DNA from: Fodinibius sediminis
Lineage (GTDB): Bacteria; Bacteroidota; Rhodothermia; Balneolales; Balneolaceae
Assembly (NCBI RefSeq): GCF_900182555.1
Contig: NZ_FXTH01000004.1
Location: forward strand, 1-64,000
Direction: 5' to 3'
DNA length: 64,000 bases
The notes below the pieces were generated by a model, which saw nothing but the letters and a program-made list of their open reading frames with translations, was not told the origin of the DNA and did not search any database. Made by a program: the position numbers and the translations under genes. Below, piece by piece: positions 1-19,799 of the stretch (the first letter of the stretch is position 1; each line of letters opens with the position of its first letter).

Positions 1-93
1 CACCCCGAACATTCCGGCTATGCTGGCGGCCGCGCCGGCAAACAAGGATTTGATGATTGAACGTCGTGATCGTTTATCGTCTGTAAATTCCAT
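1..93 (-). CDS. N-terminus of a Tat-exported protein (partial)
   Basis: A reading frame starts at the ATG at 93 and runs off the left edge, giving 31 residues. It carries a twin-arginine leader: SRRSIIKSL at residues 9-17, then an Ala/Gly-rich hydrophobic stretch. The mature domain lies outside the window, so the function cannot be read. It follows the SelA-like and amidohydrolase genes on the same strand but is separated from them by 180 bases containing a hairpin with a T-rich tail, so it may be a separate or attenuated unit. Similar leaders occur on exported TIM-barrel isomerases, oxidoreductases and RidA-like proteins; the choice is open. Confidence 0.6.
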   Translation of the reverse strand, partial: MEFTDDKRSRRSIIKSLFAGAAASIAGMFGV

Positions 94-273: not shown

Positions 274-1950
274 TCAGGTTGCCAGTGGCGGACCTTGAGG
301 CACCATAATTGGTTCTCGGTCGTTCGACTTTTCCTGGCGCTTAGCCTCAAATTTGGCTGTCAGGTATTCACCCAGGAAAACCTCACCCGAGATCTTATTG
401 CCGTCCCTTGATACAGTACCGGTAAAAATGTTCATCACACGATCGCCGGGACGCCGCTCGGTACTCAAGAGTTTCACCGTATTTCCCTCAATCGTGCCTG
501 CTATATCGCGCACAGAAAAGTCGCCCTGGTGAGCCCCTTCAACCCAGTTTTCATCCTGCTGTTCAATGTAAAAAACATGTTCACTCGTTCCGGCATAATA
601 TTGCATATCCACTTTCCAGCGCCCTGTCAAGGTTGCCGCAGGGGACTCCTTCTCTGTTGATTTGGGAGACCGCTTTTGAGACAGCAGCTCATGAATGCGA
701 TCAGCAACGACCTCGGCATCATCCGGCTGCATCATCCACGCAGTAATGGATATATAGGTCGAACCCGAATCGCTGTCGTTTCCACTGCCCACTACAATGC
801 GGGGCTTTGTACGAGCCATCTTTTCTGCCAGCTCCTGCCCGCCTATGTGAAAGCGATCAGGATCCCAGTGTATTTCAAGACGAGGACTGTGGTTGGATAT
901 GGGTGCAGTTTCTCCCGGATGAGACATCCCGGGTATCGTTGGTTCCTCAATGAGGGTATTAATTCCACTGATGTCAGAAACCCGGTTTTCTATGGTATCA
1001 AGCCACGACAGCCAGGTCTCCCATTCTTTCGTGTGATCAATCTTTACCCAGGCTTCAACGGCAGCCAACATACCCATCATCTCTTCGCGTCCCACCTTAT
1101 TATCGCGGCCGGGACCATGGTGGGGAGAACTGGCCTGCCAGGCGGCCTGCATCAGGTTTTTGGGGCCCAGCAGAAGACCGGCGCACTGAGGCCCCCGCAA
1201 CGCCTTTCCGCCACTGTAGCATACCATGGTAGCCCCGTCCCGGAGATGGGCATTGGGAACCGTAAGATCCTCTGCTGCGGCATCCACCAATACCGGCACC
1301 TCATAATCAGCGGCGATCTTAGCAACATTCTTAAGTCCGAGAGGCCCCGTACGGCCTGCCAGCAAGTAGATCATAGCGGTACGGGAACTAAGTGCAAGCT
1401 TGAATTCCTCTTCCGAGTCTACCGTAATCACATCTACGCCAATATTGCGCACCGCATGATCATAGGCGTTACGCGAGTGGCGGGGAATAATAACCTCGGT
1501 CTTGTTAAAACCGGTAAGATCAGGTATCCGAATTAATTTTTCAGGATTGCCGCCGGTTACGCAGGCTGCCGTCGCATGCTTCATAGCAGCAGCACATCCG
1601 GCCGACACCATGCCCCATTCAGCTCCGGTCAGCTCTCCCAGCCGTTCACCAATGCCTTCCGCCAGTTCATCATACTGAACATAGCTCTGAGAAGCCGCCT
1701 CCATCGCCTCCCGCACCTGGGGGCGTTCGAGCGAACCTCCTATGATAGTAAAGGTGCCCCGGCAATTGATCACCGGCTCCACCCCAATTCTGCGAAAAGC
1801 TTCGTCTCCCATTGCTCGGGTCGACAGGCCACTCGCCGAGAGTATTGACCCATCACCCTTCATACCTTCTCCTTTTGCTAACCGACTGCCTGCTGCAGCT
1901 CCCAGTGGAAGCACAGAAAGCATTTTCAACACTTCTTTTCTACTTGGCAT
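274..1950 (-). CDS. SelA-fold PLP-dependent enzyme, exported, with C-terminal beta domain
   Basis: This 558-residue protein belongs to the SelA/D-glucosaminate-6-phosphate ammonia-lyase-like branch of fold-type I PLP enzymes. The expected PLP lysine is K249 in YSGGKALRGPQ; an Asp at about 223 in LVDAAAED is the likely ring-nitrogen partner. The N-terminus (SRKEVLKML then a hydrophobic Ala/Gly stretch) resembles a Tat leader with RK in place of RR, which would suit a cofactor enzyme folded before export. Residues about 440-545 form an extra beta-rich domain (starting near LTGRWKV) not found in cytosolic SelA-like proteins. It lies 40 bases downstream of two exported amidohydrolases, so all three probably act on one extracytoplasmic N-substituted substrate. 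The reaction itself is inferred; no selenocysteine role is implied. Confidence 0.8.
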   Translation of the reverse strand: MPSRKEVLKMLSVLPLGAAAGSRLAKGEGMKGDGSILSASGLSTRAMGDEAFRRIGVEPVINCRGTFTIIGGSLERPQVREAMEAASQSYVQYDELAEGIGERLGELTGAEWGMVSAGCAAAMKHATAACVTGGNPEKLIRIPDLTGFNKTEVIIPRHSRNAYDHAVRNIGVDVITVDSEEEFKLALSSRTAMIYLLAGRTGPLGLKNVAKIAADYEVPVLVDAAAEDLTVPNAHLRDGATMVCYSGGKALRGPQCAGLLLGPKNLMQAAWQASSPHHGPGRDNKVGREEMMGMLAAVEAWVKIDHTKEWETWLSWLDTIENRVSDISGINTLIEEPTIPGMSHPGETAPISNHSPRLEIHWDPDRFHIGGQELAEKMARTKPRIVVGSGNDSDSGSTYISITAWMMQPDDAEVVADRIHELLSQKRSPKSTEKESPAATLTGRWKVDMQYYAGTSEHVFYIEQQDENWVEGAHQGDFSVRDIAGTIEGNTVKLLSTERRPGDRVMNIFTGTVSRDGNKISGEVFLGEYLTAKFEAKRQEKSNDREPIMVPQGPPLAT

Positions 1951-1990
1951 AACTACTTTTGATTAATCGTTGATATGTTAATAAATCTGT

Positions 1991-3286
1991 TTACTGATTT
2001 TCTTGCCACCTCTTGGCAGACAACCCATTCTGGTCCCACACAATTTCACCTTCGCGAATGGTTAATTCCGCATTAAGCTTTTTGTTTCCGTCAATCCTGT
2101 TTCCTCCGGAATCTACATAGCCGAAATTTCCCTTCTCTACCTTCAACACGGCTATATCAGCAACTCCGCCCTCATCCAGATGGCCCAGATCGCTGCGCTG
2201 GATAGCCTTAGCAGCCTTCCAGCTTCCTCCTGCAATCACCTCTTTCAAACGCTGGCCGAGGGTTAAATAGGTAGACATGATGTTGAGCATATCCTTCATC
2301 CCCCCGTTCATACTATAACGGTGCAGATCCGTACCAAAAGTATCGGGAAAGAGTCCCTGCTCTGAAGCGGGAACAGCAAGGCTGTAATGGAAACTTCCCC
2401 CGCCGTGCCCCACATCAAAAACAATACCCTGTTCCCTGGCCTCGAGTACATACGACTGAATCTTGTCCTCCTCATCAAGAATGGATAGCCGGTCATTCAC
2501 CGCCCCGAAGGCATGTGTAAAAATATCACCGGGACGCATGCGTTCCAGCAGTTCATCCAGAGACAACTCAGGGGTATGACATTCCAGCAGCAACGGACGA
2601 TTGCTCTGCTGAGCCGACTTCAACGCCGCCTCAAACGGGACCCAGCTTTTCCCCAGAAAATGACCGATACGCACACCTACAATGTCATCAGGATACCGCC
2701 GAACCATTGACAGTGTGCTATCGATGTCTATATCATCCATCTTATAAATACCGGAACCGGATGTCAACCCGTGACCAAAAATATTTATAAAGGCCAACAC
2801 CCGTGTGTCGGACTGCTCAATGACCTGTTTTCTGAAGTCCGGGAAATTACGCCATCCTGCATCCCCGGCATCTACGATTGTTGTAATCCCCGAACGAAAC
2901 GAAAAAGCGTCCGGCGACACGCTGGAGGCTCCGCCGTTGAACCCCTTTTCAGGATCACTGCCAAAAAACACATGTGCATGAGGATCAATAAGTCCCGGAA
3001 CCACATAAAGCCCGCTGACATCGATTACTTTCAAAGCCTCCCCGGGTGGTATATCGCGGGCAACTCGGGCAATGGTCTTTCCCTTGATCCCAAGGTCCAT
3101 CGACTGGTCGATTCCATTTTTCGGATCAATCACATGCCCCCCCTTGAGCAGCAGATCGTACGACTGGGCCCCGGCACACACGGGCAACAAGCATACCAAT
3201 ATTGCCGGCAGCGCCGCCTTTGCTGCATCATAGGTCACTTTAAACAAAATATTACGCATCTCCGACCAACAGGATACCATCGTCAT
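1991..3286 (-). CDS. Exported amidohydrolase/deacetylase-family metallohydrolase, paralogue 1
   Basis: The 431-residue protein is of the dihydroorotase-like amidohydrolase/deacetylase family. A hydrophobic signal ends at about residue 40 (CAGAQ). Metal-site elements: HAH at 103-105, His258 in IFTHAF, Asp320 in GTDLHR. At the position where the family usually has the carboxylated lysine (VGIK in the paralogue) this copy has Arg206 (VGVRIGHF). It is closely related to the next gene, 18 bases upstream, and shares the DVGHGGGS and SMNGGMK motifs, so the two look like a tandem duplication. The substrate is unknown; N-acyl amino acids or N-acyl amino sugars are plausible given the SelA-like neighbour. 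Confidence 0.8.
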   Translation of the reverse strand: MTMVSCWSEMRNILFKVTYDAAKAALPAILVCLLPVCAGAQSYDLLLKGGHVIDPKNGIDQSMDLGIKGKTIARVARDIPPGEALKVIDVSGLYVVPGLIDPHAHVFFGSDPEKGFNGGASSVSPDAFSFRSGITTIVDAGDAGWRNFPDFRKQVIEQSDTRVLAFINIFGHGLTSGSGIYKMDDIDIDSTLSMVRRYPDDIVGVRIGHFLGKSWVPFEAALKSAQQSNRPLLLECHTPELSLDELLERMRPGDIFTHAFGAVNDRLSILDEEDKIQSYVLEAREQGIVFDVGHGGGSFHYSLAVPASEQGLFPDTFGTDLHRYSMNGGMKDMLNIMSTYLTLGQRLKEVIAGGSWKAAKAIQRSDLGHLDEGGVADIAVLKVEKGNFGYVDSGGNRIDGNKKLNAELTIREGEIVWDQNGLSAKRWQENQ

Positions 3287-3304
3287 AGCTGTCTATTGCA
3301 TTTA

Positions 3305-4612
3305 TTAATACCGTCTGGGTTCTTCATCCCACAGGGGGACCGCACGACCATTAAGATCCCAGACGATACGTCCGTCGCGAATTGTTAATTCCGCCTCAAG
3401 TTTCTCGTTTCCTTTCATGGTGCGTCCCCGGGCATCGAGGAAGCCGAACTCGCCTTCTTTCACGTTAAATACCGCTACATCCGCCACTCCGCCCTCGCTG
3501 AGATGCCCCAGGTCTTCACGTCCGATAACCTGTGCCGGCGTCCAGGTGGAGCGCAGAATCACCTCCTCCAGGGGCATATCCATATTCAAAAATTTTGACA
3601 TCAGGTTAGCCATATTTTTCATCCCTCCGTTCATGCTGGAGGTATGCAGGTCACTGCTGATCACATCCGGATAGAACCCCTGTTCCATGGAGGGAATAAC
3701 CTGGTGCCAGATCAGGCTTCCGCCCCCGTGCCCGACATCAAAAACAATCCCCCTGTCCTGGGCATCGAAGATATATGGCTTCACCTTAAAATTTTCATCC
3801 ACAACGGCCTCACGTCCCCTGGTGTAGGAATAGGTATGGGTAAAGATATCTCCCGGACGGAGCTTGTCCATAAGCAGCGTTTCCAGCGACAAGGGGGGAT
3901 CGTGCTCACCAAAATCAACCATCACCGGTACATCGGCCTGCCGCCCCGCCTCCACCGCCTTTTCGACCTGGGTGAAATCTCCCCAGTAGTGGGCCGACTT
4001 GATGCCGACGATGAGATCCGGAAACAGCTCCCTGATCATGAGGGTCGTCATTTTGGGATTCATATCCGCTACGTTCTGCTCCTCGTAGCGCCCGAGCATA
4101 CCAACTCCCACAATATTCAAAAAAGCCAGCACGCGGGTCTTGGCCCGGTCAATGGTCTGCTCTTTGAAGGTCCGGAAGTTTTTCCAGCCGGCCGAACCCG
4201 CATCAACGACCGTGGTAACCCCTGCACGAAAGGTGAAGCCATCGGGAGGCAGGCTGACATAGGCATCCGCGATATAGGACTGTGCATTGGTACCGTGAAA
4301 AACGTGGGCATGCATGTCGATGATCCCGGGCGTGACATAGAGCCCACTGACATCCACAACACGTCCGGCTGAGGAGGCGGGGATATCTTCGCTGACTCTC
4401 GCAATACTGTCACCGGCAATGGCCACGTCCATGCGTCCGTCGATGCCATTTTTGGGATCAATAACGTGTCCGTTGTCAAGCAGCAGGTCAAACTGCTGTG
4501 CCATGGCTGCCGGTACCAAACAGCCAGACATCAAGAGAAATAACATCCCCAGTGTTAAAGAACCACGAAGTTTGCTTACAGCGTTTAGCCACCAACCCTT
4601 TATCATAATCAT
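3305..4612 (-). CDS. Exported amidohydrolase/deacetylase-family metallohydrolase, paralogue 2
   Basis: First gene of the three-gene operon. The 435-residue protein has a signal segment cleaved near AMAQQ (residue 39). It keeps the usual metal set: HAH at 101-103, candidate carboxylated Lys205 (VGIKSAHY), His259 (FTHTY) and Asp321 (SSDLHT). Asp233 (VDFGEH) stands where many relatives have His, a variant I believe recurs in one subfamily. A second ATG two codons downstream (4606) is an equally good start. The paralogue downstream lacks the lysine, so this copy is the better candidate for the catalytic enzyme. Confidence 0.8.
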   Translation of the reverse strand: MIMIKGWWLNAVSKLRGSLTLGMLFLLMSGCLVPAAMAQQFDLLLDNGHVIDPKNGIDGRMDVAIAGDSIARVSEDIPASSAGRVVDVSGLYVTPGIIDMHAHVFHGTNAQSYIADAYVSLPPDGFTFRAGVTTVVDAGSAGWKNFRTFKEQTIDRAKTRVLAFLNIVGVGMLGRYEEQNVADMNPKMTTLMIRELFPDLIVGIKSAHYWGDFTQVEKAVEAGRQADVPVMVDFGEHDPPLSLETLLMDKLRPGDIFTHTYSYTRGREAVVDENFKVKPYIFDAQDRGIVFDVGHGGGSLIWHQVIPSMEQGFYPDVISSDLHTSSMNGGMKNMANLMSKFLNMDMPLEEVILRSTWTPAQVIGREDLGHLSEGGVADVAVFNVKEGEFGFLDARGRTMKGNEKLEAELTIRDGRIVWDLNGRAVPLWDEEPRRY

Positions 4613-4964: not shown

Positions 4965-6164
4965 TCAGTGCTGCTCGATCCATAGAATGGGCTGGCGGAT
5001 GGGAAAATTTCGAACAATTTCAGGGAATTCGGGATCAGGATTAAGAGAATTCCATAGTGCAATATAACGGGGGCGATCCAAGGCAAGACCGCCAAATAAA
5101 AGAGCAGGATGTCTGACCGGCCACTGATCGTAGTACATGACATCCTCCCTGTACGGCCATTCACTCTTATCCTCGATATAGGGATACATGAACTCGAGAA
5201 CTTTTCCAATGGATTTACCATCTTCGGTCTGGTACGTCCAAAGATCATGATTGTCATCGGAAATTATATGTACCAGGGAGGTCATGACATCCAGGTTAAA
5301 CAGCGAATACCCATAGGGTTTGGTCCGGTCCAATTCCCTGGGAAAGCTCCCGTCTTCTGCCACCTGTTCTGGAAGCAGCGTACCTTTGTACAGAGAGCGG
5401 CACGCTTCCAATATTTCCTGATTTCCCACCAACCGTGCAAAAGCACTGGCCTGTAGTGCCCAGGCTGTACTGTGATTGTTACCATGCATTTTTTCTTCAA
5501 TGCCGAATTTACTGGTCGTTAACCAATCCAGATAGGCTGAAAACCAACCCAGCAGAGCCGATTGGTTCTCTCCTGAGAGATATCCCATGCTGTTCAATAC
5601 CCTGACAGCCTGGGCCACCTCCACCAAATGTATGGTATCGATAATACCGATACTCCGCCCCTCATTTCTCCCCATGATGGCCTGTGAATACTGCAGGTTG
5701 GGATTCATCATGGTCTTTTCATCAATAAACCAGGCATGCAGGTGCCTGATCGCTTCATCAGCGTATCTCTCTTTTCCCGTAAGTTTGAAAGCGGACACCA
5801 GTGTTGGCACTATTTTGCTTAATCTTCGCATTGCCTGCCTGTGGGCCAGAAAATTATCCGGGTTGCTCCGGCCGTCGCGTCGAATATAGGGACCGCCCGG
5901 GTTTTCAGGATCGGGCCACCAATAGTCGCCTTCAGAATAATAGTCGTGGGGGCCGCCCGCACTGCGCGGTGAGACAGTATCCGTAACCGTCACCACAGCA
6001 GTCCCCAGATAACGATCGGCAGCCTGAGATACCCGGTCATATTCGATTTCCTTCAGATCAAGAGTGGATGCGGCCCGATGCTCAGCCCCACATGCCATAC
6101 CCAGGAGTGCCGTTATCCACAGGAGTATTACTGCCGTCCAATTATATGGAAATATGGCGGACAT
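4965..6164 (-). CDS. Alginate-lyase-family (helical toroid) lipoprotein
   Basis: A 399-residue secreted protein of the alginate_lyase helical family. The hallmark is the stretch around DYWWPDPENPGGPY. The family folds as an alpha/alpha barrel and cleaves uronic-acid polysaccharides by beta-elimination; conserved HNNHS-like (GNNHST) and YWWP segments are visible. The start at 6164 is chosen because AAGGA lies about 6 bases upstream and it gives a clean lipoprotein signal (LLGMAC); the frame is open further upstream but that part is not signal-like. It is the last gene of the sigma/FecR/SusC/SusD unit, so it probably degrades the glycan taken up there. Alginate or glucuronan are the main substrate guesses; a PL38-like assignment needs a profile search. 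Confidence 0.75.
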   Translation of the reverse strand: MSAIFPYNWTAVILLWITALLGMACGAEHRAASTLDLKEIEYDRVSQAADRYLGTAVVTVTDTVSPRSAGGPHDYYSEGDYWWPDPENPGGPYIRRDGRSNPDNFLAHRQAMRRLSKIVPTLVSAFKLTGKERYADEAIRHLHAWFIDEKTMMNPNLQYSQAIMGRNEGRSIGIIDTIHLVEVAQAVRVLNSMGYLSGENQSALLGWFSAYLDWLTTSKFGIEEKMHGNNHSTAWALQASAFARLVGNQEILEACRSLYKGTLLPEQVAEDGSFPRELDRTKPYGYSLFNLDVMTSLVHIISDDNHDLWTYQTEDGKSIGKVLEFMYPYIEDKSEWPYREDVMYYDQWPVRHPALLFGGLALDRPRYIALWNSLNPDPEFPEIVRNFPIRQPILWIEQH

Positions 6165-6275
6165 AGGGGGTCCTTTTTTGGATATCACAGCCTGCGTGTG
6201 ATACCCGTTGTCGATTTCTAAACCTTGCTGATCAAAACTTTTCCCGAGCGTGATCAAACATTCATAACTTCCATA

Positions 6276-7937
6276 CTAGTATCCCGGATTCTGCTCATTA
6301 ATTTCTGAATTCTGATCCAGTTCATTTTGAGGTATTGGAAATAAGACAAGATCACCCGGATAATTGTCCAGGTTTGGATTATCAAACCTGTCACTGTGAT
6401 CCAGGGGCAGATAATCGGAGTAAAAATGCCTTTTCACCCGGGTGCCGTCACCAAAAATATTCTTCATTTCCCCCCACCTGACTAGATCCCACAGTCGTTG
6501 TCCTTCCAGGGCAAGCTCAACCCGGCGTTCGTGCCTGACAAGCTCAACCAGTGATCCATCAGCCGCCGTTTTGGGAGGCATGTCGACCGAGGGTCGGGCC
6601 CGCACTTTATTCACCCAAACCAGAGCTTCATTATTGCCCTGTTCAGCCAGCGCTTCCGCCAGAATAAGATATAGATCCGCCATTCGCATCAGGGGAACGT
6701 CTTTCCCGGCCCATCGCTCGTTGGGGAGATGCCCGATATTGTAGATATCCTTCCTAACATTCATTCCAGTCGGCGACCATCGATAATCGTATGCCACCGT
6801 ATCCCCCGCTGTATATGTAGAGTCATAGGTTACGAGTTCTCCGGAATCGTTGTATCTCTCGTGGGTATACGTTAAGGGTTCCCCGGCATTGTAGACCCCA
6901 AAGGCGTCTCCTGTAGAAAAGATGGTATACTCCCGTCGCGGGTCGCCTTCTTCATAGGCCTCGTACAAGTCGCGTTGGGGGAGGTGATATCCCCAGCCTG
7001 AAACGCCCCAGATATGAGATAATTCCGGGGGAAGATCACGCGACAGCCGCTGCACCATATAATTAGCACCATAGTCGTCAGCTTCGATGTAGGGAATATA
7101 GAACAACAGTTCCGGGTTCGCTTCATTGTTGATATCAAATATAGACATATAGTCGTCTACCAGGTGGTATCCCGTATTTTCCGCAATTTCAATCGCACTG
7201 CGTGCGGCGGTCTCAGCAGCAGTAAAGTCTTCCCTGTAAAGCTGTGTCTTGGCAAGGTAAGCCGCTGCCGTTGCTTTTGTTGCACTTCCGGTATACGAAG
7301 TTGGCCATTCTTCCGGCAGTTTTTCCCTGGCAAGGGTGAAATCGTTAATAATCCTCTCGTAAATCTGATCCGTAGAAGACTTGGGCTGTTCAAATTCTGC
7401 CATCGAGGAGAGCGGAGATTCTATTAGCGGTACTTCCCCAAAGAAATTAACCAGAAACAGATAAGAGAAACCGCGCACAAAATGTGCCTCGGCAATATAG
7501 GGATCCAGCTCTTCCTGGGTCATTCCCTTCTCAAGCAGAGTCGGGATCTTTTCAATAGCGTAATTGGCTGCGTTAACACTTTGGTAGGCATACCGCCAGT
7601 AGTTTCTGATCGTCCCGTGCTCGGGAGTGATATTCCACTCCGACTGCTGGATGGAGGCACCCCGTGATGGTCTCCAGTGCCCGTCATCGCTCATACCGTC
7701 GAACATAATCACAAGATCCCGCTGATACATGGATGAACTCCGGGTCCATGGCTGGTAAGCAGCTGCTACCGCTGCCTTGGCCGAAGATTCATCGACAAAA
7801 AAGATATTGGGGGCCGGTTCATCTTTAGGATACCGGTCTAGGAATTCCTCTTCACTCATAAGATCGCAAGCCGAAACAAGTAGAACTCCTCCTAAAAATA
7901 ATACTGTGTACAAACAATAGTTTCTGAAATTCTTCAT
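6276..7937 (-). CDS. RagB/SusD-family glycan-binding lipoprotein
   Basis: 553 residues with a lipoprotein signal (LLVSAC, Cys24) and the RagB/SusD architecture: TPR-like helices, motifs such as EAHFVRGFSYLFLVNFFGEVPL and MRMADLYLILAEALAE, and the C-terminal NELDQN-type ending. SusD proteins sit on the outer membrane over the SusC channel and capture oligosaccharide. It lies 34 bases after the susC gene and before the alginate-lyase-family gene. Because its partner SusC has an internal stop, this protein may be made but unable to function unless readthrough occurs. Confidence 0.92.
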   Translation of the reverse strand: MKNFRNYCLYTVLFLGGVLLVSACDLMSEEEFLDRYPKDEPAPNIFFVDESSAKAAVAAAYQPWTRSSSMYQRDLVIMFDGMSDDGHWRPSRGASIQQSEWNITPEHGTIRNYWRYAYQSVNAANYAIEKIPTLLEKGMTQEELDPYIAEAHFVRGFSYLFLVNFFGEVPLIESPLSSMAEFEQPKSSTDQIYERIINDFTLAREKLPEEWPTSYTGSATKATAAAYLAKTQLYREDFTAAETAARSAIEIAENTGYHLVDDYMSIFDINNEANPELLFYIPYIEADDYGANYMVQRLSRDLPPELSHIWGVSGWGYHLPQRDLYEAYEEGDPRREYTIFSTGDAFGVYNAGEPLTYTHERYNDSGELVTYDSTYTAGDTVAYDYRWSPTGMNVRKDIYNIGHLPNERWAGKDVPLMRMADLYLILAEALAEQGNNEALVWVNKVRARPSVDMPPKTAADGSLVELVRHERRVELALEGQRLWDLVRWGEMKNIFGDGTRVKRHFYSDYLPLDHSDRFDNPNLDNYPGDLVLFPIPQNELDQNSEINEQNPGY

Positions 7938-7971: not shown

Positions 7972-10900
7972 TTAGAAACCTACTTTCAGACCCAGTGTCC
8001 ACGTCCGTGGCTGAGGCACACCCGTCAGGACATCCGCATTCGAGTCAACCTCGGGACCGTAAAAATCGGTGAATGTATAGAGGTTTTGCACACTGACATA
8101 TGCCCCAAGATTACCAACCCCAATTTTTTCAACAAAGTTGCTGGTGAAATCGTAACTCAGATTCACATTGCTTATCCGGAGATAGGATGCATCGGAAAGC
8201 CAGAAATCCGAAAACAGCAGGTTGCTGCCCGCATCGTTTGCCGTAACCCTTGGATACTTCCCGTCAGGATTTTTCTCCGGGTGGTAGCGATCCAAAATCA
8301 GACGGTCATGATTCTTGGCCCACTGGGTAAAATAGTGCAGGGCGCCCAGATTCGTTCCACCGCGAATATCCCTGCTCAGTCCCTGCAATCCCTGCAACTG
8401 AACCTGAAGGGTCAACTGCCTGTAGCCCAGGGTTCCTGTGGCACCATACTGGATATTGGGCAAATCGTTGCCCAGCAGAGCCCGATCCGCTGCATTCACG
8501 GTCCCATCCGGTTCTCCGGTCAAATTACCCTCCTCATCATAACCGTTGATATCTTTGAGCCAAATATCTCCTATCTCTTTACCGGGGTAATGAGGATAAT
8601 TCTCCAGCTCTTCCTGTGTCCTTATGATACCATTGGATACATAGCCAAAATGCGACTTCAGCGTATGTCCCTCTACAATACCCTCCGTGCGGAGATCGCG
8701 CCCTTCCAGGTCCAGCACCTCATTCTTAAAATGAGACATATTCACATTGAAGCTGTATTGCCAGTCATCCACGGTCTGCCTGTAGCCGAGTTCCAGTTCA
8801 ACACCGGTATTGCGTATTTTTCCCGCATTGATATAGGGACTACCGGATAGTCCCGTAGACATGGGAATCGGCTGCCGGAACAGCAGGTCATAGGTGTCTT
8901 CTATAAAGAAGTCCGTTATCAGATATATCCTGTTTTGCAGCATTTCGATATCCAGACCGATGTTCTTCTTTTCGGTAGTTTCCCATTTCAAATCCGTATT
9001 TATTGCGCTTGTCAGAGTATACCCAAGGGCTGGTTCCTGTGGCTGACCTAGAATATAATTGCGATTATTCAGGCTGGTTTTGGTTCCATAGGTACCGATG
9101 CTCAGTACATTGCCAACCGTACCCCAGCTCGCGCGCAGTTTAAGTTCGCTAAGCCAGTCAACATCTTGCATGAAGTTCTCTCTGCTTACCCTCCAGGCAG
9201 CAGATACCGATGGAAATACCCCATAGCGATAATTTTCAGCCAGTCGGGAAGTGCCGTCTCTCCTGACGGTGGCATTCAGAATATACTTTTCCTTGAATGT
9301 GTAGCCCAGACGACCAAACATACCGGTGAAGGCCCAGTCGGAAAAGTCATTATCCGTACGCAAAGAGGTCGGGTCAGCTGCATTGAGGTATCGTATGGCA
9401 TTACTGGGGGTTCCATTTCCGTAACCACTCAGGCTCTCAAATGTCTGTTCCTCGCGTGAATACCCAAGAACACCAGTGAGATAATGGTCTTCCCCCAATG
9501 ATCCCTCGTAATTAAGTAAAAAGTCCGTTTGCCAATAAAGACTTTCCCCGTTTATCTTCCTTAGCTCATTGACATTGCTTCCTTCCCATCCCAGGGATTG
9601 ATCAACCCCATTGGTAAACAGCGACGTATAATTGTTGGTCCACCGGGCACTGCTCCGTGCTGTAAACTCCAGTCCCTGTAAAATATCAATGGTCAAATAA
9701 AGATTACCCATGACGCCCTTTTCATTGCGCTTGTTGATGTTCTCGGAAAGAAAAAGGGGGCTCTGGTGCATATGCTCAAGCTGCGTATTTCGGATCCTCC
9801 CGTAACTGCCATCTTCTTCATAGATCCGGGTGATCGGAACTTTCTGAATAGCTCCGGTATACTACCCATTCAGGCGATTGCGCTTGGATGAAAAAAGATT
9901 TAGAGAATTGCCAAAAGTAAGCCAGTCTCTAATCTGGTGATCAGTATTTAGCCGCAGGTTGATTTCATCATAGTCGGTTCCCATGACCATCCCTTGGTGG
10001 TTGGTATAGTTTGTCGAGACAAAATAGGTTGACTTGTCGGAACCGCCGGAAACAGATAAATTTGAGTTTGATAGGTATCCGGGACTTAGCATTTCACCAT
10101 ACCAGTCAGAATTGACCCCTTGATACTGTGCCAGATCTTCCTGGTCCCATGGGGTCGATACCCCCATATTGGTATAAGCTTCTGTGTAGATCTCTAGAAA
10201 TTCGTCCGCATTCAGCAAATCCAGTTTTAGGTTGCTCTCCTCCTGTACAGCCCCGTAGGTGTGAAAAGTAATCGCAGGCTGGGCGTCATTCGAACCCCGC
10301 TTTGTATTAACCAGTATAACACCATTAGCCCCTCTTGAACCGTAGATCGCTACGGCTGATGCATCTTTCAGCACCGAGACCGACTCAATATCCTGATGAT
10401 TTATATGATCAATGTTATTGGTGATATTTCCGTCCACCACAAATATGGGAGAATTGCTCCCCCTTATTGACTGCTCCCCACGGACGCGGATACTTGCCGA
10501 GGCCCCGGGCAGCCCGGAATTTGATACAATACGCAAACCGGCAGACCGTCCCTGCAGCGACATCAGCGGATTTGTGGTTGGCACCCGCTCAAATTCTTCT
10601 TCATTGACAGTGGACACAGCTCCTGCAAGATCGGTTTTCCTCATAGTCCCATATCCCACCACTACCAACTCCTCTCCTGCAATGGCCTGCGGCTGCAGGG
10701 CAACATCAAGCTCTGTTCGTCCACCGATAGGCACCTCCTGACGCTGATAACCGATGTACGTAAATACCAGGGTATCCTGTAGTGAAGGCACCGTCAATTG
10801 ATAATCTCCGTTGCTATCCGTAGAAGCACCTCTTGACGTTCCCTTCACCAGGATATTTACCCCCGGCAGCGTCTCCCCAGATTCGACATCTGTCACCGTG

Positions 10901-11301
10901 CCTGCCACCTGCTCCTGGACAGGCAGGATATCTTCCCGATTTACCTCTTCCTGCACCTCATAGATTCCATAGGTCTTGGGATTCAAATACTTGTACTGGA
11001 GTCCTTGGCCTTCCAGCAGCTTATTGAGTGCCTTTTCAACATTGCTGGATAATATTTTGGTACTGCCAATCTTCTTACCACTCATGGTATCCGTGCGATA
11101 TAGAAATACCACATTGTATTGCCGTTCCATTTCCTTCAGTGCCTGCCCCAGATTCATCCCCCCTTCAATCGTAAATCCATTGGTATGGACAGGAGTCAAA
11201 TGCAGCGAACCCAGGGTCTGAGCTTGACTGAAACTGCTCATCAGGAATAAGCAAAGAACTGGTAATATTACTTTAAAAAAACACCGTTTAACATATTTCA
11301 T
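7972..11301 (-). pseudogene. STN-type SusC/RagA outer-membrane transporter split by an in-frame amber stop
   Basis: The gene reads as one 1,109-codon frame with a single TAG at 9862-9864. The first 479 residues hold a signal peptide, an STN domain (about 40-115), a carboxypeptidase-regulatory-like domain (about 130-215) and the TonB plug (GYGTMRKTDLAGAV onward). After the TAG the same frame continues for 30 codons (YTGAIQKVPITRIYEEDG...) into the 599-residue barrel part ending GLKVGF. No frameshift is needed, so this is one substitution from an intact gene. The STN domain means it normally signals to FecR (the gene just upstream) and the ECF sigma factor. Either a recent loss, a sequencing error, or amber readthrough would explain it. 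Confidence 0.85.
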
Positions 11302-11357
11302 GATTTCATCCCATTTTCTATTAAGAAGTGTTCTCTGTTAATGTTGGTTGGTAATGG

Positions 11358-12422
11358 TTAAAAGTTATCCCCTATATAGACAGTTTCGCGATCTGCTGAC
11401 TGGTAGACCGGTATGAGGGCTACTTCCGAAACCGATCGAACCAGTTCCTCCAGGGATCTGAAATAAACCCCTCCGTCTATTTTGATATCGGTCAGCCGGG
11501 GATCTGTGAGCTGTACCTGTACCCTAAATCGTTGTTCAACATACTGAGCAAACTCCTGGATGGTTGTCTCGTCAAACTGCATGAATCCCGTTGCCCAGGA
11601 TGTATAGAAAGTAGCGTTGACCGTCTTTCTGCTTATGACCTCTGACTCATCAAACGCCAGCATTTCTCCTTTTTTGAGAGCAACGGCAGGTTCATCATTT
11701 CCCTTCCCCCCCGGATTGATTTGCACTTCTCCTTCCTGCAGTACCACCCTCGAATAATCCTCACTAACGGTTACCAGAAATTCGGTACCAATATCCCGTA
11801 TATCCCCGTCCGGGGTATGAATGGCAAACATGGGCTCTTTTCGTGAAGAATCACTCTCCGCATCAAAATAGGCCTCCCCTTCAAGCACAACCTCAATCGT
11901 CTGGTTGTGAAGCAGGCCCAACCGATAGGTCAATGCCGAATTACTGTTCACAATAATTCTTGAGCCATTTGAAAATTTAATCGTCTTGTGTTCCCCCTGA
12001 TCCGTCCTGACCGTTCGTTCCTGTGTAATCTGCTCAACCCGGGTGGAAGATGAATCATCCTGACCGTAAAAAAAGAGACCAAAGCCGATCATTCCTCCTA
12101 CAATCAATATCGATGCTACCCGCAAGATCCATGACACTGAAGAAGTCCTGCTGCGCACAGAACGAAATGCCCCCCCCTTTTTCCCAACAGTGGACCCATG
12201 CAGCCGTATCCATTCCGCCTGCACATCCACCTCCCCGGGATCATCAAATCCAAAGCCTGCAATCTCGGCAATAGCCTCTTTGGCTATTGCCCTATTTTGA
12301 TCGGTGGCTTCCATCCACTGGTTCCAGCGTCTTATTTCCCCCGGGCCTGCAGTCCCTTTCACCATCCGCCGAAAGGATTGATTTTGTATAAGTTCTGGAA
12401 CGGTATAATGCTCTTTCTGCAC
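11358..12422 (-). CDS. FecR-family anti-sigma factor
   Basis: 354 residues with an N-terminal cytoplasmic sigma-binding part, one membrane helix at about 92-112, a FecR domain (EQITQERTVRTDQGEHKTI to about 240) and a C-terminal DUF4974-like domain. It should hold the neighbouring ECF sigma factor inactive until the STN domain of the SusC protein reports ligand. The frame starts at GTG (12422); the next ATG would remove 19 residues of the sigma-binding region. It sits 56 bases before susC and 196 bases after the sigma gene. Confidence 0.9.
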   Translation of the reverse strand: MQKEHYTVPELIQNQSFRRMVKGTAGPGEIRRWNQWMEATDQNRAIAKEAIAEIAGFGFDDPGEVDVQAEWIRLHGSTVGKKGGAFRSVRSRTSSVSWILRVASILIVGGMIGFGLFFYGQDDSSSTRVEQITQERTVRTDQGEHKTIKFSNGSRIIVNSNSALTYRLGLLHNQTIEVVLEGEAYFDAESDSSRKEPMFAIHTPDGDIRDIGTEFLVTVSEDYSRVVLQEGEVQINPGGKGNDEPAVALKKGEMLAFDESEVISRKTVNATFYTSWATGFMQFDETTIQEFAQYVEQRFRVQVQLTDPRLTDIKIDGGVYFRSLEELVRSVSEVALIPVYQSADRETVYIGDNF

Positions 12423-12618
12423 GATTTAAAAGATATTTTACGGTTACTTCGGCAGAGGAGAGTCACGAAAACCTTCAGCGTACTCATTTTTTTATGAAAA
12501 AATCGAAATTTTATTGCATCGGCTCTACAGACCACCGCTCATGCAGGAGGATATTTTCCTGTAGAATTGCAAGGATACTGCATAGGAAGGGCACGGGACC
12601 AGCATGGCAACCCAGCCA

Positions 12619-13242
12619 TCATAAAAACAAAAGAAAGGAGATAAACAGGGAGATAACCAGCCTCATGATTTCCGTATCCAACAGGCTTCGCAGGGTTTGC
12701 ATCGCACGGTACATGTGATTGCGGACCGACTGGCGGTTGATGGATAGTATCTGTTCAATTTCAGCGTAGCTCATCCCATTGTAGTAATGCAGGTAAATCA
12801 CTTCTTTTTGACGGTTGGATAACTGGTTCAGGGCATGCTGAAGCTCCCTCTGTTGATGAAATTTTACTTCATCTCTGATTATCAGCTCCTCCTTGTCAAA
12901 CTGGATGGAAATGTGTTCATCCAGTTCCTCCATCTCACAGTTTCTTTTCCTGCATCTTTTTAATCTTTTCAGGATCATTCGCCGCAGGGATACGAAGAGA
13001 TATACATTGGGCGACTCTACGTGCCCAAGTTTATCCCGCCGTTCCCATAGCGTTCTGAATAATTCCTGTATACAATCCTTCACCAGTTCGGGACGGTTGC
13101 ACAACTTTAACCCATAGCCGTACATCGACGTATAATAGCAGTGGAACACCCGCTTGAAACTACCTTCATCCCCCTGGATGAAGTGCTTCCATGCTGTACT
13201 CCTGTCGCCTGTATTTCCCGTTTCGTTATGTTTTGATGCCAT
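12619..13242 (-). CDS. ECF RNA polymerase sigma-70 factor
   Basis: 207 residues with sigma region 2 (about 28-95, VKDCIQELFRTLWERRDKL) and region 4 (about 135-185, LSNRQKEVIYLHYYNGMSYAEIEQIL). This is the Bacteroidota-type ECF factor encoded with a FecR and a SusC carrying an STN domain. It should drive the susC-susD-lyase genes downstream. A short hydrophobic tail (LVISLFISFLLFL) follows region 4; it is unusual for a soluble sigma factor and could tether the protein to the membrane. Confidence 0.9.
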   Translation of the reverse strand: MASKHNETGNTGDRSTAWKHFIQGDEGSFKRVFHCYYTSMYGYGLKLCNRPELVKDCIQELFRTLWERRDKLGHVESPNVYLFVSLRRMILKRLKRCRKRNCEMEELDEHISIQFDKEELIIRDEVKFHQQRELQHALNQLSNRQKEVIYLHYYNGMSYAEIEQILSINRQSVRNHMYRAMQTLRSLLDTEIMRLVISLFISFLLFL

Positions 13243-13440
13243 AGGCTTGATACTGAAAACTATCCCCTATCTCGAAAACAGTATGCTGTTCCCAAAGGCC
13301 TTTAATCGAAGGGTAATAAAAATCCCTAATCTCCATCCCATTTTGAAAAGCCCGTTACCAACCTATAAAAATAAAAAGGGAAGTCAAATTAATTTCACGA
13401 AAATGGAACCATATTGGTTCTTACCTGTTGGCTGAAATCA

Positions 13441-14805
13441 TCAGCGTTCATCGTCCTGTATCCATTTTCCATTGAGCATTACGCGGTCGATCTTCTTCAT
13501 CACCGCGATATCTTCAACCGGGTTTCCATCGACCATGATAAGATCGGCCAGTTTACCGGCTTCAATACTGCCCAGCCGCTGCCCGGTTCGAAAATACCGG
13601 GCATTCCCCGTCGTACTGCTCACGAGCACATCCATCGGCTTCATTCCAGCTTTAACCAGCAATTCCATTTCGTGCTGATAATCCAGCCCGGCCTCAGCAT
13701 GTGGGATCCGCGCATGCGAACCTATTGAAATTTTCATCCCGGACTTGTAGGCCTGCTCAACAAAGCGGACCATATTCCGGTATCCTGTCAAGTGGAACTC
13801 TTCCACCCCTTCATCCCCCTTTTGACGCTCATAGACACCCAGCGTGGGCGTGAAAAAAATATCATGTGCAACCGCCAGATCAATAACCTCCCGCAGCCGT
13901 TCTGATTCCATATCAATTTTCGACCACAACCTGAACCGCTCCTCGCGCCGGGCACTGTAATCGGCACGCACCGCTGCTTTAAACCTCTGTACATCCTCCG
14001 GATCAGCCAGAGCCGTACCAAAGGAGGTCACATGTTCGATTCCGTCAATACCTGCCCGAATGGCATCATCAGCATCCACCAGTTCCAGGTGGGCCATCAC
14101 TGGAATGCCCACTCCCGAGGCCGCATTCGTAATAGTCTCGTAGTATTCCAGTGGAAGCCGAAAGTACAGCTTGATACCGGTAGCTCCTTTTTCGAATTGA
14201 TCATAGACAGCCCGGCGGGCATGGGCGGCATCTCTGACGACAATCGCCTGCTGACTCCAGACCGGGGGAAAGCCATCGAGATGCCCCCCGGTCAAGAATA
14301 CCCGGGGCAGCGGACGCTTCGCAAAATGCAGCGACTGGTAGAAGCGAAAGGGGTGCCCGGGGTCGCGCATCGTAGTGACGCCATGACGAAGATAGTTGTG
14401 AATCCAGTCGTTGTTCATCACCGAATGCAGGTGGGCGTCGATCAATCCCGGCATCAGGGTCTTGCCTGTGGCATCAAGGCGATCAGCATGAGCCGGGATG
14501 TCAACCTCCTCACGCGGTCCGGCAGCGACAATTCTGTTTCCTTCCACCACAACCACGGCATCCTCGACCGGCTCTCCACCGCGACCGTCTATCAGCCGGC
14601 CCCCGACAATAGCCAATGGCTTTCGGACAGTCGGCACTGCCGGTGGATTAACCTCTATTAGGGGCTCCACGTGCTTTGTGTCCTGCCAGCGCGCAGTGAC
14701 CTGCTGGGCGACCACATTGGCAGCAAACAGGAGAATGAATACAAGACATCCTGCTATTAAGAAATATTGATTGAAAAGATGCTCCCTCACACTCATCCTC
14801 TGCAT
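13441..14805 (-). CDS. Secreted amidohydrolase (imidazolonepropionase-like)
   Basis: 454 residues after the chosen start. The signal anchor (YFLIAGCLVFILLFAANVVAQQ) is followed by an amidohydrolase domain: HLH in DAHLHSV, candidate carboxylated Lys in GIKLYF, His in MAHLE and IEHVTSF. The last ligand region reads IGSHA where most relatives have G(T/S)DA, so His replaces Asp. The frame is open upstream to 14988 but that part overlaps fucI and is not signal-like; ATGs at 14805 and 14796 are the realistic starts. It ends the symporter-DapA-fold-fucI operon, 49 bases after fucI. The role may be release or recycling of an amide or lactone in that pathway; the substrate is unknown. Confidence 0.8.
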   Translation of the reverse strand: MQRMSVREHLFNQYFLIAGCLVFILLFAANVVAQQVTARWQDTKHVEPLIEVNPPAVPTVRKPLAIVGGRLIDGRGGEPVEDAVVVVEGNRIVAAGPREEVDIPAHADRLDATGKTLMPGLIDAHLHSVMNNDWIHNYLRHGVTTMRDPGHPFRFYQSLHFAKRPLPRVFLTGGHLDGFPPVWSQQAIVVRDAAHARRAVYDQFEKGATGIKLYFRLPLEYYETITNAASGVGIPVMAHLELVDADDAIRAGIDGIEHVTSFGTALADPEDVQRFKAAVRADYSARREERFRLWSKIDMESERLREVIDLAVAHDIFFTPTLGVYERQKGDEGVEEFHLTGYRNMVRFVEQAYKSGMKISIGSHARIPHAEAGLDYQHEMELLVKAGMKPMDVLVSSTTGNARYFRTGQRLGSIEAGKLADLIMVDGNPVEDIAVMKKIDRVMLNGKWIQDDER

Positions 14806-14854
14806 ATTTAACGTTAGTAACCTGATATGATGTAGATCGAGATCCCCTCCCGGG

Positions 14855-16684
14855 TCAACCATTTTTGCCGTAAAGCGGCCCGTAGTTTTGGCACGCCCTG
14901 AAGTCGGCGGCCTCCAGATCTTTGGTTCCAAAAGCCCCCCAGGCGCTGGGACGAAAAATTCGCTCCCGGGGAATATTATGCATCGCAACCGGGATACGCA
15001 ACATCGAAGCCAGTGTCACAAATTTATCTCCAATATGGCCGTAGCTCAGTACCCCGTGGTTCGATCCCCAGTTGTCCATGACGGAATAGACATCCCTGAA
15101 TACATCCCTGCCTGTCAATCGGGGAGCAAACCAGGTGGTCGGCCAGGTAGGATCAGTACGACGATTTAATATCTGATGCACTTCACCTGGAATATTTACC
15201 GTGAATCCTTCAGCAATTTGCAGAACAGGTCCCAGGCCCTTGATCATGTTAATGCGAGTCATCGTCACCGGCATATTTCCCCGGGTCAGAAACTGAGAAG
15301 AGAACCCACCTCCCCGGAAATATTCAAGGTTGGCCGGGCACCATCGCGTCGCCTCAAGACAGGCCTTGGCCTCCTCTTCTTCTATCTCCCAAAAAGGCTT
15401 CATCACAGGTTGATTGTTTCTGGTCTGCCGACCGGTCCCATCCAGTGCCGCCGATCCTGAATTCAGAAAATGAATAATCCCGTCGGCAGCTTTGCCTGTT
15501 AACTCGTAGCCGGTGACCCTCTTCACCGATTCGGCACTCCAGTAGGTACGAATATCGCCAAAAATCTGGGCACTGTTCGTTATCTGGTGGCCCAGCAGCA
15601 TACAGGCGGCATTCAGCGTATCATTTTCAGTCGCGATAATATAGGGCTCGCGTATTCCATTCCAGTCAAAAGAGGAATTGAGAACAGCCTCGGAAAAATC
15701 ACCATTGGGAAAATAATCGGTCCACTGTCGTTGTCCCTGAAACCCTGCCGCTATGGCATTGCGTCCCAGAGCCTCCTCCCCGTAACCGATATCATCAAGC
15801 CGTGGATTACCGGTCATTAAATCACGCATTATAAACGTCATTTTCACTACCGTCTCCCAATTCTGATCCTTTTCCTCCCGGCCAAGCTGTTTGCTTTCGG
15901 GATTAACATCCTCTCCTTCCGTGCAATAGGTCTCCACCCATTGCAAAGCGTTGTGGAATTCCTTCTCATCATATATTTTTTCTTCCATACGCCTCGTAAT
16001 CTCAGACATATCTACTGCTTCACAGCGCATACCAAAATAATCCTCAAAAAAATCTTCCTGGATCATCGATCCTGCAATACCCATCGAGACCGACCCGATT
16101 GAAAGGTATGACTTGTTCCGAATGGTTGCTACAGCCAGACCCGCATTGACAAATCGAAGGATCATCTCCCCTACGTCATCTGTAATTTTGTAATCCTCAA
16201 TATCCTGTACCCCGGCCCCGTATATTGTAAATACCGGCAGCCCTTTTTGGTCGTGGGCAGCTTTGGTTGCTGCCAGGTATACTGCACCGGGACGGTCACT
16301 AAAATTCAATCCCCAGATAGCTTTTGGATACCAGGGATGCATATCCATCGTCTCAGCGCCATAGCACCAGCATGGCGTGACCGTTAGCGACAGTCCGACA
16401 CCCTCTCGCTCGAACATTTCAGCTGCTTCTGCTGCCTCCGCAACCCCTCCGATACAGCTATCTGCCACCACACACTCCACAGGAGCACCGTGGGTATGCC
16501 GTACATTCGAAGAAATAAACGATGCTGCTCGGCGGGCCATATCCATTGTTTGAGCCTCCAGCGATTCCCTCACTCCCTGTCGCCTCCCGTCAATGACAGG
16601 CCGGATACCAACCTTTGGTGCCATGCCGATTGTTCGCGGCTCCTCTTGCGGCACTGCCCGTCTATATATCTTCCTGTTGCTCAT
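14855..16684 (-). CDS. fucI: L-fucose isomerase
   Basis: 609 residues, collinear with Escherichia coli FucI from [18 protein letters not shown] through GPVLQIAEG to the [10 protein letters not shown] ending. It interconverts L-fucose and L-fuculose (often also D-arabinose and ribulose) using Mn2+. The metal ligands correspond to E353 (ATENDT), D377 (GDIRT) and H543 (SNHG). The start at 16684 is supported by GAAGGGAGC about 8 bases upstream; an upstream ATG at 16738 lacks this. It is flanked by a DapA/NanA-fold lyase and an amidohydrolase, with no fuculokinase or fuculose-phosphate aldolase in the window. Confidence 0.96.
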
Positions 16685-16781
16685 AATAAAGCTCCCTTCT
16701 TTGTTACGGTTTATCGTGAACTTATCCGGCCCCAACATCTACCCGGCTGTATGCTGCGGCAATTCCCCAAAAATGGTTTTT

Positions 16782-17750
16782 CTAGCTTTTTATATCTGCT
16801 ATAAATTCCGGCCGGTCGATTCCCAGCTCCTCACGAATTTCCTTTGCGGAAATAAAAAGACTATCCATGATTCTTTCCTCCTCATTCGTCAAATGCTCCT
16901 GGGATGCCCTGAGTTTTAGTGTTAACGGTAACCCCCGTTTTCGTAAAAAAGCTTTAGCCATCAGGGGGTACTTATTCCGGGTAATCCCATCCAGGAGCGT
17001 AAGCATTCGCTGTAAATAATTAATTTTCCCCCTTTTTTCATCATCACTGAAAAATTCACACAGGTAGGAATATAATTCGGGATAAAAATTTGCTGATATC
17101 GGTGAAAGTCCATCGCCACCCAGCTGCAGCGATTCAAGTGCTGTCGGTGTGTTTGCATTGTAAAAATTCAGCCTCGAATCGCAGGTATAAGAAAGTTTTT
17201 CCCTGATGTCATCGATATTACAGGAGGTGTCCTTATGATAAAAAAACCGTCCTGAATCAACCAGCCACTCCATTATTTCCGGTGTTAAAAGTCGTTTGTA
17301 AGGGGACGGACACTCGTAGATTCCCAGCCGGATTTCACCGGTGGCACTGGAAATTTTTTCCAGCCTTGCCAGCAGCTTGTGATCCCCTTCATCTTCCCTG
17401 GCCAATATGCTCGTAACAAGTATTACTGCTGTCACCCCTTTGGCAGCCATTTTCTTTATGAACTCAATCTGCTCCCCGATATCGCCTCCGAATGTTCCCG
17501 TAGAAACAACGGGAACCCTGCCGGCCACCCGGTCTAAAACCCGCTCCGTCAAATGTAATCGTTCCTCAGGCGTCAGGTAATACATTTCGCTTGACAGGCA
17601 ATTAACAAAAAGGCCTGAAGAACCAGCGCTTATATAAAAGTCTGTAAGAATATCCAGGGCCTCGTGATCAATCGTCAGGTCCTCATTGAATGGGGTAATC
17701 ATTACAGGCCACAATCCCTGAGGAAGTGGTTTCAAATTATTAAGTGACAT
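16782..17750 (-). CDS. Dihydrodipicolinate synthase/N-acetylneuraminate lyase family protein
   Basis: 322 residues with a class I aldolase TIM barrel. The Schiff-base lysine is K173 (YHKDTS) and the catalytic tyrosine Y145 (IYECPSPYKR). The usual substrate loop is replaced by STGTFGG at 83-89, so the substrate is neither clearly pyruvate plus semialdehyde nor sialic acid. The start at 17750 overlaps the last 11 bases of the symporter gene (ATGTCACTTAA), pointing to translational coupling. Transport, an aldolase-fold lyase and FucI in one operon suggest a deoxy-sugar or 2-keto-sugar-acid route. Annotating it as dapA or nanA would over-reach. Confidence 0.85.
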   Translation of the reverse strand: MSLNNLKPLPQGLWPVMITPFNEDLTIDHEALDILTDFYISAGSSGLFVNCLSSEMYYLTPEERLHLTERVLDRVAGRVPVVSTGTFGGDIGEQIEFIKKMAAKGVTAVILVTSILAREDEGDHKLLARLEKISSATGEIRLGIYECPSPYKRLLTPEIMEWLVDSGRFFYHKDTSCNIDDIREKLSYTCDSRLNFYNANTPTALESLQLGGDGLSPISANFYPELYSYLCEFFSDDEKRGKINYLQRMLTLLDGITRNKYPLMAKAFLRKRGLPLTLKLRASQEHLTNEEERIMDSLFISAKEIREELGIDRPEFIADIKS

Positions 17751-19236: not shown

Positions 19237-19799
19237 ATTAAATCGAAATGTAATACCCCAAGATTCCATTTCCCAACTTTTCCTGGTGAATGCGACAGGC
19301 AGCCATCACTGGGAAACCACGAATTTCAGTACCCAATTACTCAATCAGTACAGACAAAAGCCATGTGAAAATTATCCCATACATAAAGTATTTTCACTAT
19401 CCGTGCCGTGTCCAACCACTTGAAATCGGGATGCTATCCCCTCCTTACACATTTTGCTGATCCCCTGGGACTACCGCCAATCCCATTCCACCCGGAAAAG
19501 TAAAAAAATCACCCAGAACCAGGCCTGTCACTATCATGCCACTATTTTGCAATCATTCTCTCCGGTAATAATTTAATTAATTTGCTTAATTGTTAACTTT
19601 ATTTTAAATATCAAACATATTAAAGGGATAAACTTATAAATATTACCCTAAAACTAAAGTATATTCACACTTGACTATTTATTCCGGGGCTACACCTAAT
19701 TCGCATTATCACTTGTAAGATGGTCATCCAACACAACGGCGTGATGGTACATTGAATATCGACCAGTAAAATCCCAACATTAAAACTTCGGGGTCGCAT
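19237..19799. promoter_or_regulatory. Divergent regulatory region between symporter operon and araC-type gene
   Basis: About 560 gene-free bases between two divergent genes. The part from 19560 to 19680 is very AT-rich and the likely site of both promoters and of AraC-type binding. I could not define a clear repeated operator by eye. Confidence 0.5.
19612..19619 (-). promoter_or_regulatory. Candidate -7 element for the symporter-fucI operon
   Basis: On the minus strand the sequence is TATGTTTG, an exact TAnnTTTG match. It implies a leader of roughly 370 bases before the ATG at 19236. No good TTG -33 element is seen at the right spacing, which would fit a promoter that needs the AraC-type activator. 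Confidence 0.3.

Follow-up and report, generated by a model that had tools for sequence, protein, structure and literature searches.

A predicted exported amidohydrolase, PLP enzyme and RidA gene module in Fodinibius sediminis as the putative core of an extracytoplasmic N-acyl amino sugar pathway

A close chemical precedent for the gene module described here is the Ong pathway of oxidative chitin catabolism in Pseudoalteromonas. According to the available parts of two reports, N-acetylglucosaminate is deacetylated in this pathway and then deaminated by a pyridoxal 5'-phosphate (PLP)-dependent step to 2-keto-3-deoxygluconate without phosphorylation (PMC9537276, PMC12017989). The module lies at the left end of a 64,000-nucleotide stretch of Fodinibius sediminis (contig NZ_FXTH01000004.1, positions 1 to 64,000 of the forward strand; "the window") and comprises minus-strand genes for two amidohydrolases, AH1 and AH2, and a PLP protein, P0001, followed by the start of a RidA gene. 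PLP chemistry outside the cytoplasm occurs in PvdN and the racemase BsrV, both exported PLP enzymes, PvdN by the twin-arginine translocation (Tat) pathway; we know of no catabolic ammonia-lyase and of no exported RidA partner among such enzymes.

As far as the available descriptions go, the Ong pathway and the route proposed here share deacetylation followed by PLP-dependent deamination without phosphorylation, TonB-dependent receptors, and an inner-membrane symporter. OngB and OngC are cytoplasmic and described there as D-aminoacylase-like and as a putative D-amino acid deaminase, whereas the enzymes here are an amidohydrolase of the COG3964 type and a PLP protein of the DgaE/SelA fold, both with export leaders, and differ from OngB and OngC by these descriptions. 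Moreover, a sugar dehydrogenase and a lactonase adjoin the core here. A sequence-only reading of the window had known of no characterized pathway with this layout, which is to be corrected for the chemistry in view of the cytoplasmic Ong pathway as partly described (PMC9537276). With respect to location, no such extracytoplasmic route was described in titles and abstract openings among the matches listed, which covered openly licensed papers only and are weak evidence of absence. The second known system, DgaE, has the PLP fold (27-28% mean identity) and the PLP lysine in common with the exported-type proteins, but its substrate is phosphorylated on uptake by the phosphotransferase system. In the part of the DgaE report available, the phosphate is placed near Arg-301, Arg-332, and Arg-346, and His-163 protonates C3, with the H163A mutant releasing the enamine (PMC9529869). 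For haloarchaea, the accessible text of another report predicts that glucosaminate is processed by way of an unknown kinase and a DgaE homologue (PMC12343721).

Exported deacylation followed by a PLP-dependent step is the best account of the module, which probably supplies the central deacylation and deamination steps of a pathway that oxidizes N-acyl amino sugars outside the cytoplasm, with acids derived from N-acetylhexosamines as the most likely substrates. From the gene content, leaders, conservation, clade structure, and active-site residues observed, we infer all reactions, the substrate, and the location, with an overall sequence from N-acetylhexosamine via lactone, aldonate, and aminoaldonate to 2-keto-3-deoxyaldonate. 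A sugar dehydrogenase of the GSDH family (pyrroloquinoline quinone type by family), fused to cytochrome c, would oxidize C1 of the sugar, an exported lactonase would open the lactone to the N-acetyl-aldonate, and the exported amidohydrolase would take off the acyl group. The Tat-exported DgaE-like enzyme would then eliminate the C3 hydroxyl of the 2-amino-3-hydroxy acid, and a Tat-exported or lipoprotein RidA would hydrolyze the released enamine or imine to 2-keto-3-deoxyaldonate and ammonia. As guesses from family chemistry, an exported RraA aldolase may cleave this product and an SBF symporter may import pyruvate or the keto-acid. The periplasm contains no ATP, so an unphosphorylated route would be expected there, and the loss of most of the phosphate site in the P0001 clade fits this expectation. 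An elimination enzyme without a proton donor should release the enamine, which would couple it to an exported RidA as the expected partner. Deacylation of an N-acyl compound and subsequent PLP processing of the amine outside the cytoplasm had already been suggested from the sequence; this proposal is supported in that it fits the predicted neighborhood (oxidase, lactonase, RidA, aldolase, symporter) of the short form of the PLP protein, one of two forms found, P0001 being of the long form.

The three-gene module exists as it had been read: the open reading frames (ORFs) 274-1950, 1991-3286, and 3305-4612 were confirmed, all on the minus strand. P0001 (274..1950, 558 amino acids) is a SelA-fold protein nearest to DgaE and Cap15, as it matched PDB entries 7lc0 (DgaE) and 8t7j (Cap15) by sequence and by fold (Foldseek). 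The profile check against both families, which had been recommended, yielded matches below the cutoffs to two DgaE-family models (TIGR01437, 129.7 bits, cutoff 385.3; another model, 127.6 bits, cutoff 600). An identity as SelA, the selenocysteine synthase, was ruled out by 17.9 bits on TIGR00474 with a cutoff of 267.9. The PLP lysine K249 in an SGGK motif (codon 1204..1206) is invariant in the alignment. The added C-terminal beta domain was borne out as a modeled eight-strand barrel (residues 443-538, 337..624; mean pLDDT, the predicted local distance difference test, of 85 for the AlphaFold model of P0001 and 88 for the barrel modeled alone). A domain profile, built from 14 of the 18 long-form proteins, found it in all 18 and in a protein from Granulicella. 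A structure search with the barrel returned weak matches to many small barrels, with a best E value of 1.7e-4 and including the quinohemoprotein amine dehydrogenase 1jju (TMq 0.65), from which no function was drawn. The closest named relative of the module, as found by one protein query at one locus that detects close relatives only, is in Fodinibius roseus, classed in Balneolota by NCBI, with a PLP protein 85% identical. Behind the long-form gene of this species (11743-15431 of its stretch) there are two FAD-oxidoreductase-like genes, the first matching PF12831, and not RidA.

The active site was compared in 78 exported-type PLP proteins, using the residue numbers of the PDB chain, in which the PLP lysine is 213 (217 in PMC9529869). 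All 78 kept this lysine, and it was invariant together with many other residues across 40 aligned sequences. Few or none kept the phosphate-site arginines and the His residues of DgaE: Arg-346 was present in none of the 78, Arg-332 in 2, and Arg-301 in 6, all of them long forms and including P0001. His-163 occurred in 2, His-162 in 1, and both together in none; P0001 has Thr at the position of His-163. In the tree, the exported-type proteins, including those of Granulicella, form one group (100/98) apart from DgaE, Cap15, and relatives from Rhizobium and a haloarchaeon, and the long form and the short form are each one clade. The places of DgaE, Cap15, the Rhizobium and haloarchaeal proteins, and both Granulicella rows are unsure, with long branches flagged. 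The leaderless Rhizobium relative retains the His pair, Arg-301, and Arg-332 and adjoins RidA, and the haloarchaeal one retains none of these residues.

AH2 (1991..3286) and AH1 (3305..4612) are paralogues with 49% identity and leaders that look Sec-type by inspection, and on NF006689 P0002 and P0003 scored 399.6 and 435.3 bits, both above the cutoff of 371. The claim of two amidohydrolase paralogues, predicted from their leaders to be exported, was thus borne out. Both are of the COG3964/EF_0837 type, with near full-length sequence matches to PDB entries 2ogj, 2ics, and 8je0, to which they are alike in the HxH motif and the strand-8 Asp. The metal ligand set of NF006689 presumably is HxH, Lys, His, His, and Asp. 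Among 79 aligned amidohydrolases, HxH and Asp were present in all, the strand-6 His in 78, and Lys in 76. The leader peptide and the strand-5 position differ from the PDB relatives, which have His there; in 78 of the 79 members, Asp (70) or Glu (8) is found instead, a possible signature of this clade. Full-length AH2-type paralogues occur at eight long-form loci, and three shorter pieces of 92, 306, and 146 amino acids at short-form loci also score nearest to AH2. A run of AH1, AH2, and GSDH in G985 comes without a PLP gene in the stretch. Separately, in one genome where the PLP gene had no match, an amidohydrolase of this family (10038-11561 of its stretch) adjoins a PF10282 lactonase.

The sequence-only reading had also noted a further gene with a Tat leader behind P0001. 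The start of such a gene is present (1..93, minus strand), but its identity is now that of an exported-type RidA gene, cut after 31 codons by the contig end. The encoded 31 residues resemble the leaders of RidA proteins that are about 160 residues long, with 25 identities to the homologue in G016, and a chance match was rejected, as the eight best matches among 899 N-termini were all exported-type RidA leaders. The RidA homologue in G011 matches PF01042, homologues score above the cutoff of this model, and the PxRT-type motif was found by pattern in 40 of 44 homologues, the remaining four having PCRTT. The conserved Arg of this motif we take to be functional. In the same genome, the first 95 bases of contig C10, located behind a lactonase gene, are identical to positions 1-95 of the window, and the right end of contig C12 carries the 3' end of a RidA gene followed by amidohydrolase, RraA, and SBF genes. 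The genome therefore contains at least two RidA copies that do not differ in their first 93 bases. This would account for the assembly break, which was probably caused by the shared 95-base repeat. In G011 the cluster is uninterrupted, with the order SusC, SusD, RidA, GSDH-cytochrome c, short PLP protein, SMP-30, Tat RidA, amidohydrolase, RraA, SBF, and C10 and C12, if read in this order, would form a full cluster.

Conserved co-occurrence in other genomes, without which the module would have been doubtful, was strong. P0001 homologues were found in 8 of 92 family members (E limit, 1e-20) and in 8 of 395 phylum members (1e-30), this set being taken as Bacteroidota in the wide GTDB sense. The amidohydrolase family (1e-60) occurred in 12 of the 395 genomes, including all 8 with the PLP gene (Fisher p = 3.6e-14, including the own genome and uncorrected for relatedness). 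A short-form query (1e-40) had matches in two further orders, in 10 of 298 genomes of one and 27 of 291 of the other. Of the 49 places in the latter, 38 were covered, the remaining 11 being all of genus g341; for the two P0001 searches and the first of these orders, every place was examined. Neighbors were counted within 8.5 kb of a PLP gene as anchor, in loci selected for carrying this gene. The reference proteins came from the same loci, the anchors included fragments of at least 225 amino acids, anchors in one cluster share neighbors, and at least one PLP gene, in G976 and masked by a longer antisense ORF, is not among them. Around the 62 short-form anchors from 21 genera, the counts were 57 for amidohydrolase, 51 for RidA, 41 for GSDH-cytochrome c, 27 for SMP-30, 25 for CBM9, 26 for SusC, and 23 each for RraA and SBF. 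Amidohydrolase and RidA were each found in all 21 genera; the RidA genes and the RidA leader in the window resemble the Ong cluster, in which the available description lists the RidA-family gene OngD. Among the 44 short anchors with 6 kb or more to either end of the stretch, 43 had amidohydrolase, 41 RidA, and 35 GSDH-cytochrome c. Twenty control windows at round coordinates in 6 genomes contained SusC in 5 cases, GSDH and SBF in 1 each, and amidohydrolase, RidA, SMP-30, RraA, and CBM9 in none. The CxxCH motif was present in 35 of 35 GSDH fusions; the one 490-amino-acid "PQQ490" protein searched had no Pfam match, and neighbors of this kind are unassigned. In 9 of 10 genera, an amidohydrolase lay no more than 8.5 kb from the long form. 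The loci L103, L105, L106, L108, and L109 of genus g341 have long-form genes with neither amidohydrolase nor RidA in this range.

With respect to the sugar, the locus in G643 encodes an N-acylglucosamine 2-epimerase above the cutoff and a ROK-family kinase. A long-form locus of G069 has a second, lower-scoring epimerase, which carries a Tat-like leader; these epimerases point to N-acetylhexosamines. Genes for GH20 hexosaminidases are present in the own genome and were not found in G011, so a supply from chitin would not be general.

The N terminus of P0001, MPSRKEVLKML, is Tat-like with RK instead of RR (residues 1 to about 28, 1867..1950; the end is an estimate), which bears out the Tat-like leader originally seen. 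One filter that accepts RR or KR/RK assigned Tat-type leaders to 61 of the 63 short-form and 17 of the 18 long-form PLP proteins, as well as to 37 of the 44 proteins nearest to the Tat RidA. Among the long forms, P0001 included, 14 scored as RR and 3 as RK; the remaining one, MIMKRRDHLKN, did not pass the filter although it has RR. Of 434 unassigned ORFs, 50 passed as well, 22 of these with RR. As ORFs were called as the longest possible, some N-termini are too long. TatC was found in 8 of 8 genomes searched. Retention in the cytoplasm would have spoken against the module; by this motif filter the Tat-type leaders are conserved, and the predicted export was not refuted.

A plasmid search covered 241 records, and three regions were examined. 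That of Granulicella tundricola (Acidobacteriota) has the order RraA, short PLP protein, RidA, second PLP protein, amidohydrolase/deacetylase, lactonase, BBE-domain oxidase, hypothetical protein, GH35; no SBF gene was found in the examined region. In the tree, the second PLP protein falls with the long form, and it carries the barrel. RR leaders are present on both PLP proteins, on RidA, and on the lactonase, the amidohydrolase leader is Sec-like, and the BBE protein is without a clear one. The plasmid regions of Rhizobium and the haloarchaeon did not contain this neighborhood. The exchange of the sugar oxidase and the lactonase for other families while the core stays the same indicates a C1-oxidized sugar as the input.

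Several observations weigh against this reading or limit it. Export is predicted from sequence, and the leader of P0001 itself has the RK variant. P0001 retains one of the three phosphate-site arginines, Arg-301, and has Pro at the position of the DgaE carboxylate residue Arg-226; 12 more of the 78 proteins have a His elsewhere in the stretch of His-163, and the Rhizobium relative, with both His residues and a RidA neighbor, indicates that RidA is not tied to the loss of His. AH2 has Arg at the conserved, metal-bridging Lys position, so that, together with the replaced strand-5 His, activity cannot be assumed. Four genomes of one genus among the 395 have the amidohydrolase without the PLP gene, and RraA and SBF are each missing at 39 of the 62 short anchors. 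Linkage is looser around the long-form anchors (amidohydrolase 11, RidA 4, and GSDH 5 of 18), and 5 of 7 long loci in genus g341 lack a nearby amidohydrolase. The G643 epimerase has no leader, which places part of this locus in the cytosol. Finally, a hairpin-like repeat at 141-160 and a T-rich run, read by eye and not reported by a repeat scan, lie between the P0001 stop and the RidA start, so RidA in the window may be a separate transcript. A single transcript through RidA is weakened by this repeat.

The same exported core of deacylase, PLP lyase, and RidA might instead act on N-acyl beta-hydroxy (D-)amino acids, which peptides or cell walls, among others, could provide. DgaE chemistry removes the C3 hydroxyl of a 2-amino-3-hydroxy acid, and Ong-type deacetylases are a sister group of the D-aminoacylases, both as far as described in the accessible text (PMC9529869, PMC12017989). 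This substrate is nevertheless unlikely in view of the recurring C1 sugar oxidases and lactonases (GSDH-cytochrome c at 41 and SMP-30 at 27 of the 62 anchors, BBE oxidase and lactonase in Granulicella) and of the N-acylglucosamine 2-epimerase at one locus. Alternatively, the genes may be a loose set of ordinary polysaccharide-locus accessories, with the long-form PLP protein and AH2 of the window diverged or inactive and no joint chemistry. The solo loci in genus g341, the Lys-to-Arg exchange in AH2, Pro for Arg-226 in P0001, and the split SusC gene of the window would agree with this, but the residues invariant with the PLP lysine over 40 sequences, the barrel-bearing long form in Acidobacteriota, and the nearby amidohydrolase in 9 of 10 long-form genera make it quite improbable. 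Least probable is an oxygen-dependent PLP protein like Cap15 instead of an ammonia-lyase, acting in extracytoplasmic amino acid oxidation with RidA hydrolyzing the imine: Cap15 (8t7j, titled oxygen- and PLP-dependent) was the top Foldseek match just above 7lc0 and, as nearly all of the exported-type clade, has no His at either of the two DgaE positions, with a His directly after, but sequence scores slightly favor DgaE (96.8 versus 80.2, 199.6 versus 177.5, and 115 versus 105.3 bits), Cap15 retains all three phosphate-site arginines, mostly lost in the clade, and it sits with DgaE outside the clade on a long branch.

Exported deacylation and PLP-dependent elimination on oxidized N-acyl amino sugars thus remains the preferred reading. 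The window represents its long-form branch, with a barrel-bearing PLP enzyme, two amidohydrolases, and RidA, which is less certain than the short-form branch; its substrate may be another, related acylamino sugar acid that the SusC/D and lyase genes upstream would supply. A more speculative and doubtful extension is that the whole route to pyruvate is extracytoplasmic: the lyase, having lost its proton donor, would release the enamine in the periplasm, where it does no harm to cytosolic PLP enzymes, the exported RidA would finish the reaction, RraA would cleave, SBF would import pyruvate, and the window branch would extend this to a sugar acid with two acyl groups. If the preferred reading is true, the envelope would house PLP-dependent cleavage of C-N bonds along with a dedicated RidA, and an oxidative deamination route would run without ATP or phosphorylation. 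Some environmental bacteria would then deacetylate and deaminate oxidized amino sugars outside the cell interior by exported forms of a normally internal PLP enzyme and RidA. Recurrent "SelA-like," "deacetylase," and "RidA" genes, now annotated piecemeal, would gain a joint function, and the exported-type enzymes, without the His that spares DgaE the enamine release, would allow a clear-cut test of the reason why certain PLP lyases depend on RidA.

On the minus strand of the window, the gene order is sigma factor, anti-sigma factor, split SusC-like receptor, SusD, PF05426 protein, AH1, AH2, P0001, and the 31 RidA codons, tightly packed in the module with 18 bases between AH1 and AH2 and 40 between AH2 and P0001. 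Family searches identified the alginate-lyase-family (PF05426) protein (4965..6257) and the SusD-family lipoprotein (6276..7937). By inspection, a SusC-like receptor (7972..11301) and a putative pair (11358..13242) of an anti-sigma factor (11358-12422) and an extracytoplasmic function-type sigma factor (12619-13242) were assigned; similar ORFs adjoin other SusD genes, and similar sigma/anti-sigma pairs occur at related loci. The SusC-like gene consists of two ORFs (7972-9771 and 9862-11301; 599 and 479 amino acids, respectively) and may be broken or misassembled because of this split. Farther along the window, positions 14855-19269 carry in one run an L-fucose isomerase, a DHDPS-family protein, and, by inspection, a transporter-like protein, possibly a sugar or sugar-acid island. 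At 24207-27727, genes are present for a BNR-repeat (sialidase-like) protein and for a YdjC-type carbohydrate deacetylase that carries a leader, next to that of a membrane protein presumably resembling a relative of heparan N-acetyltransferase.

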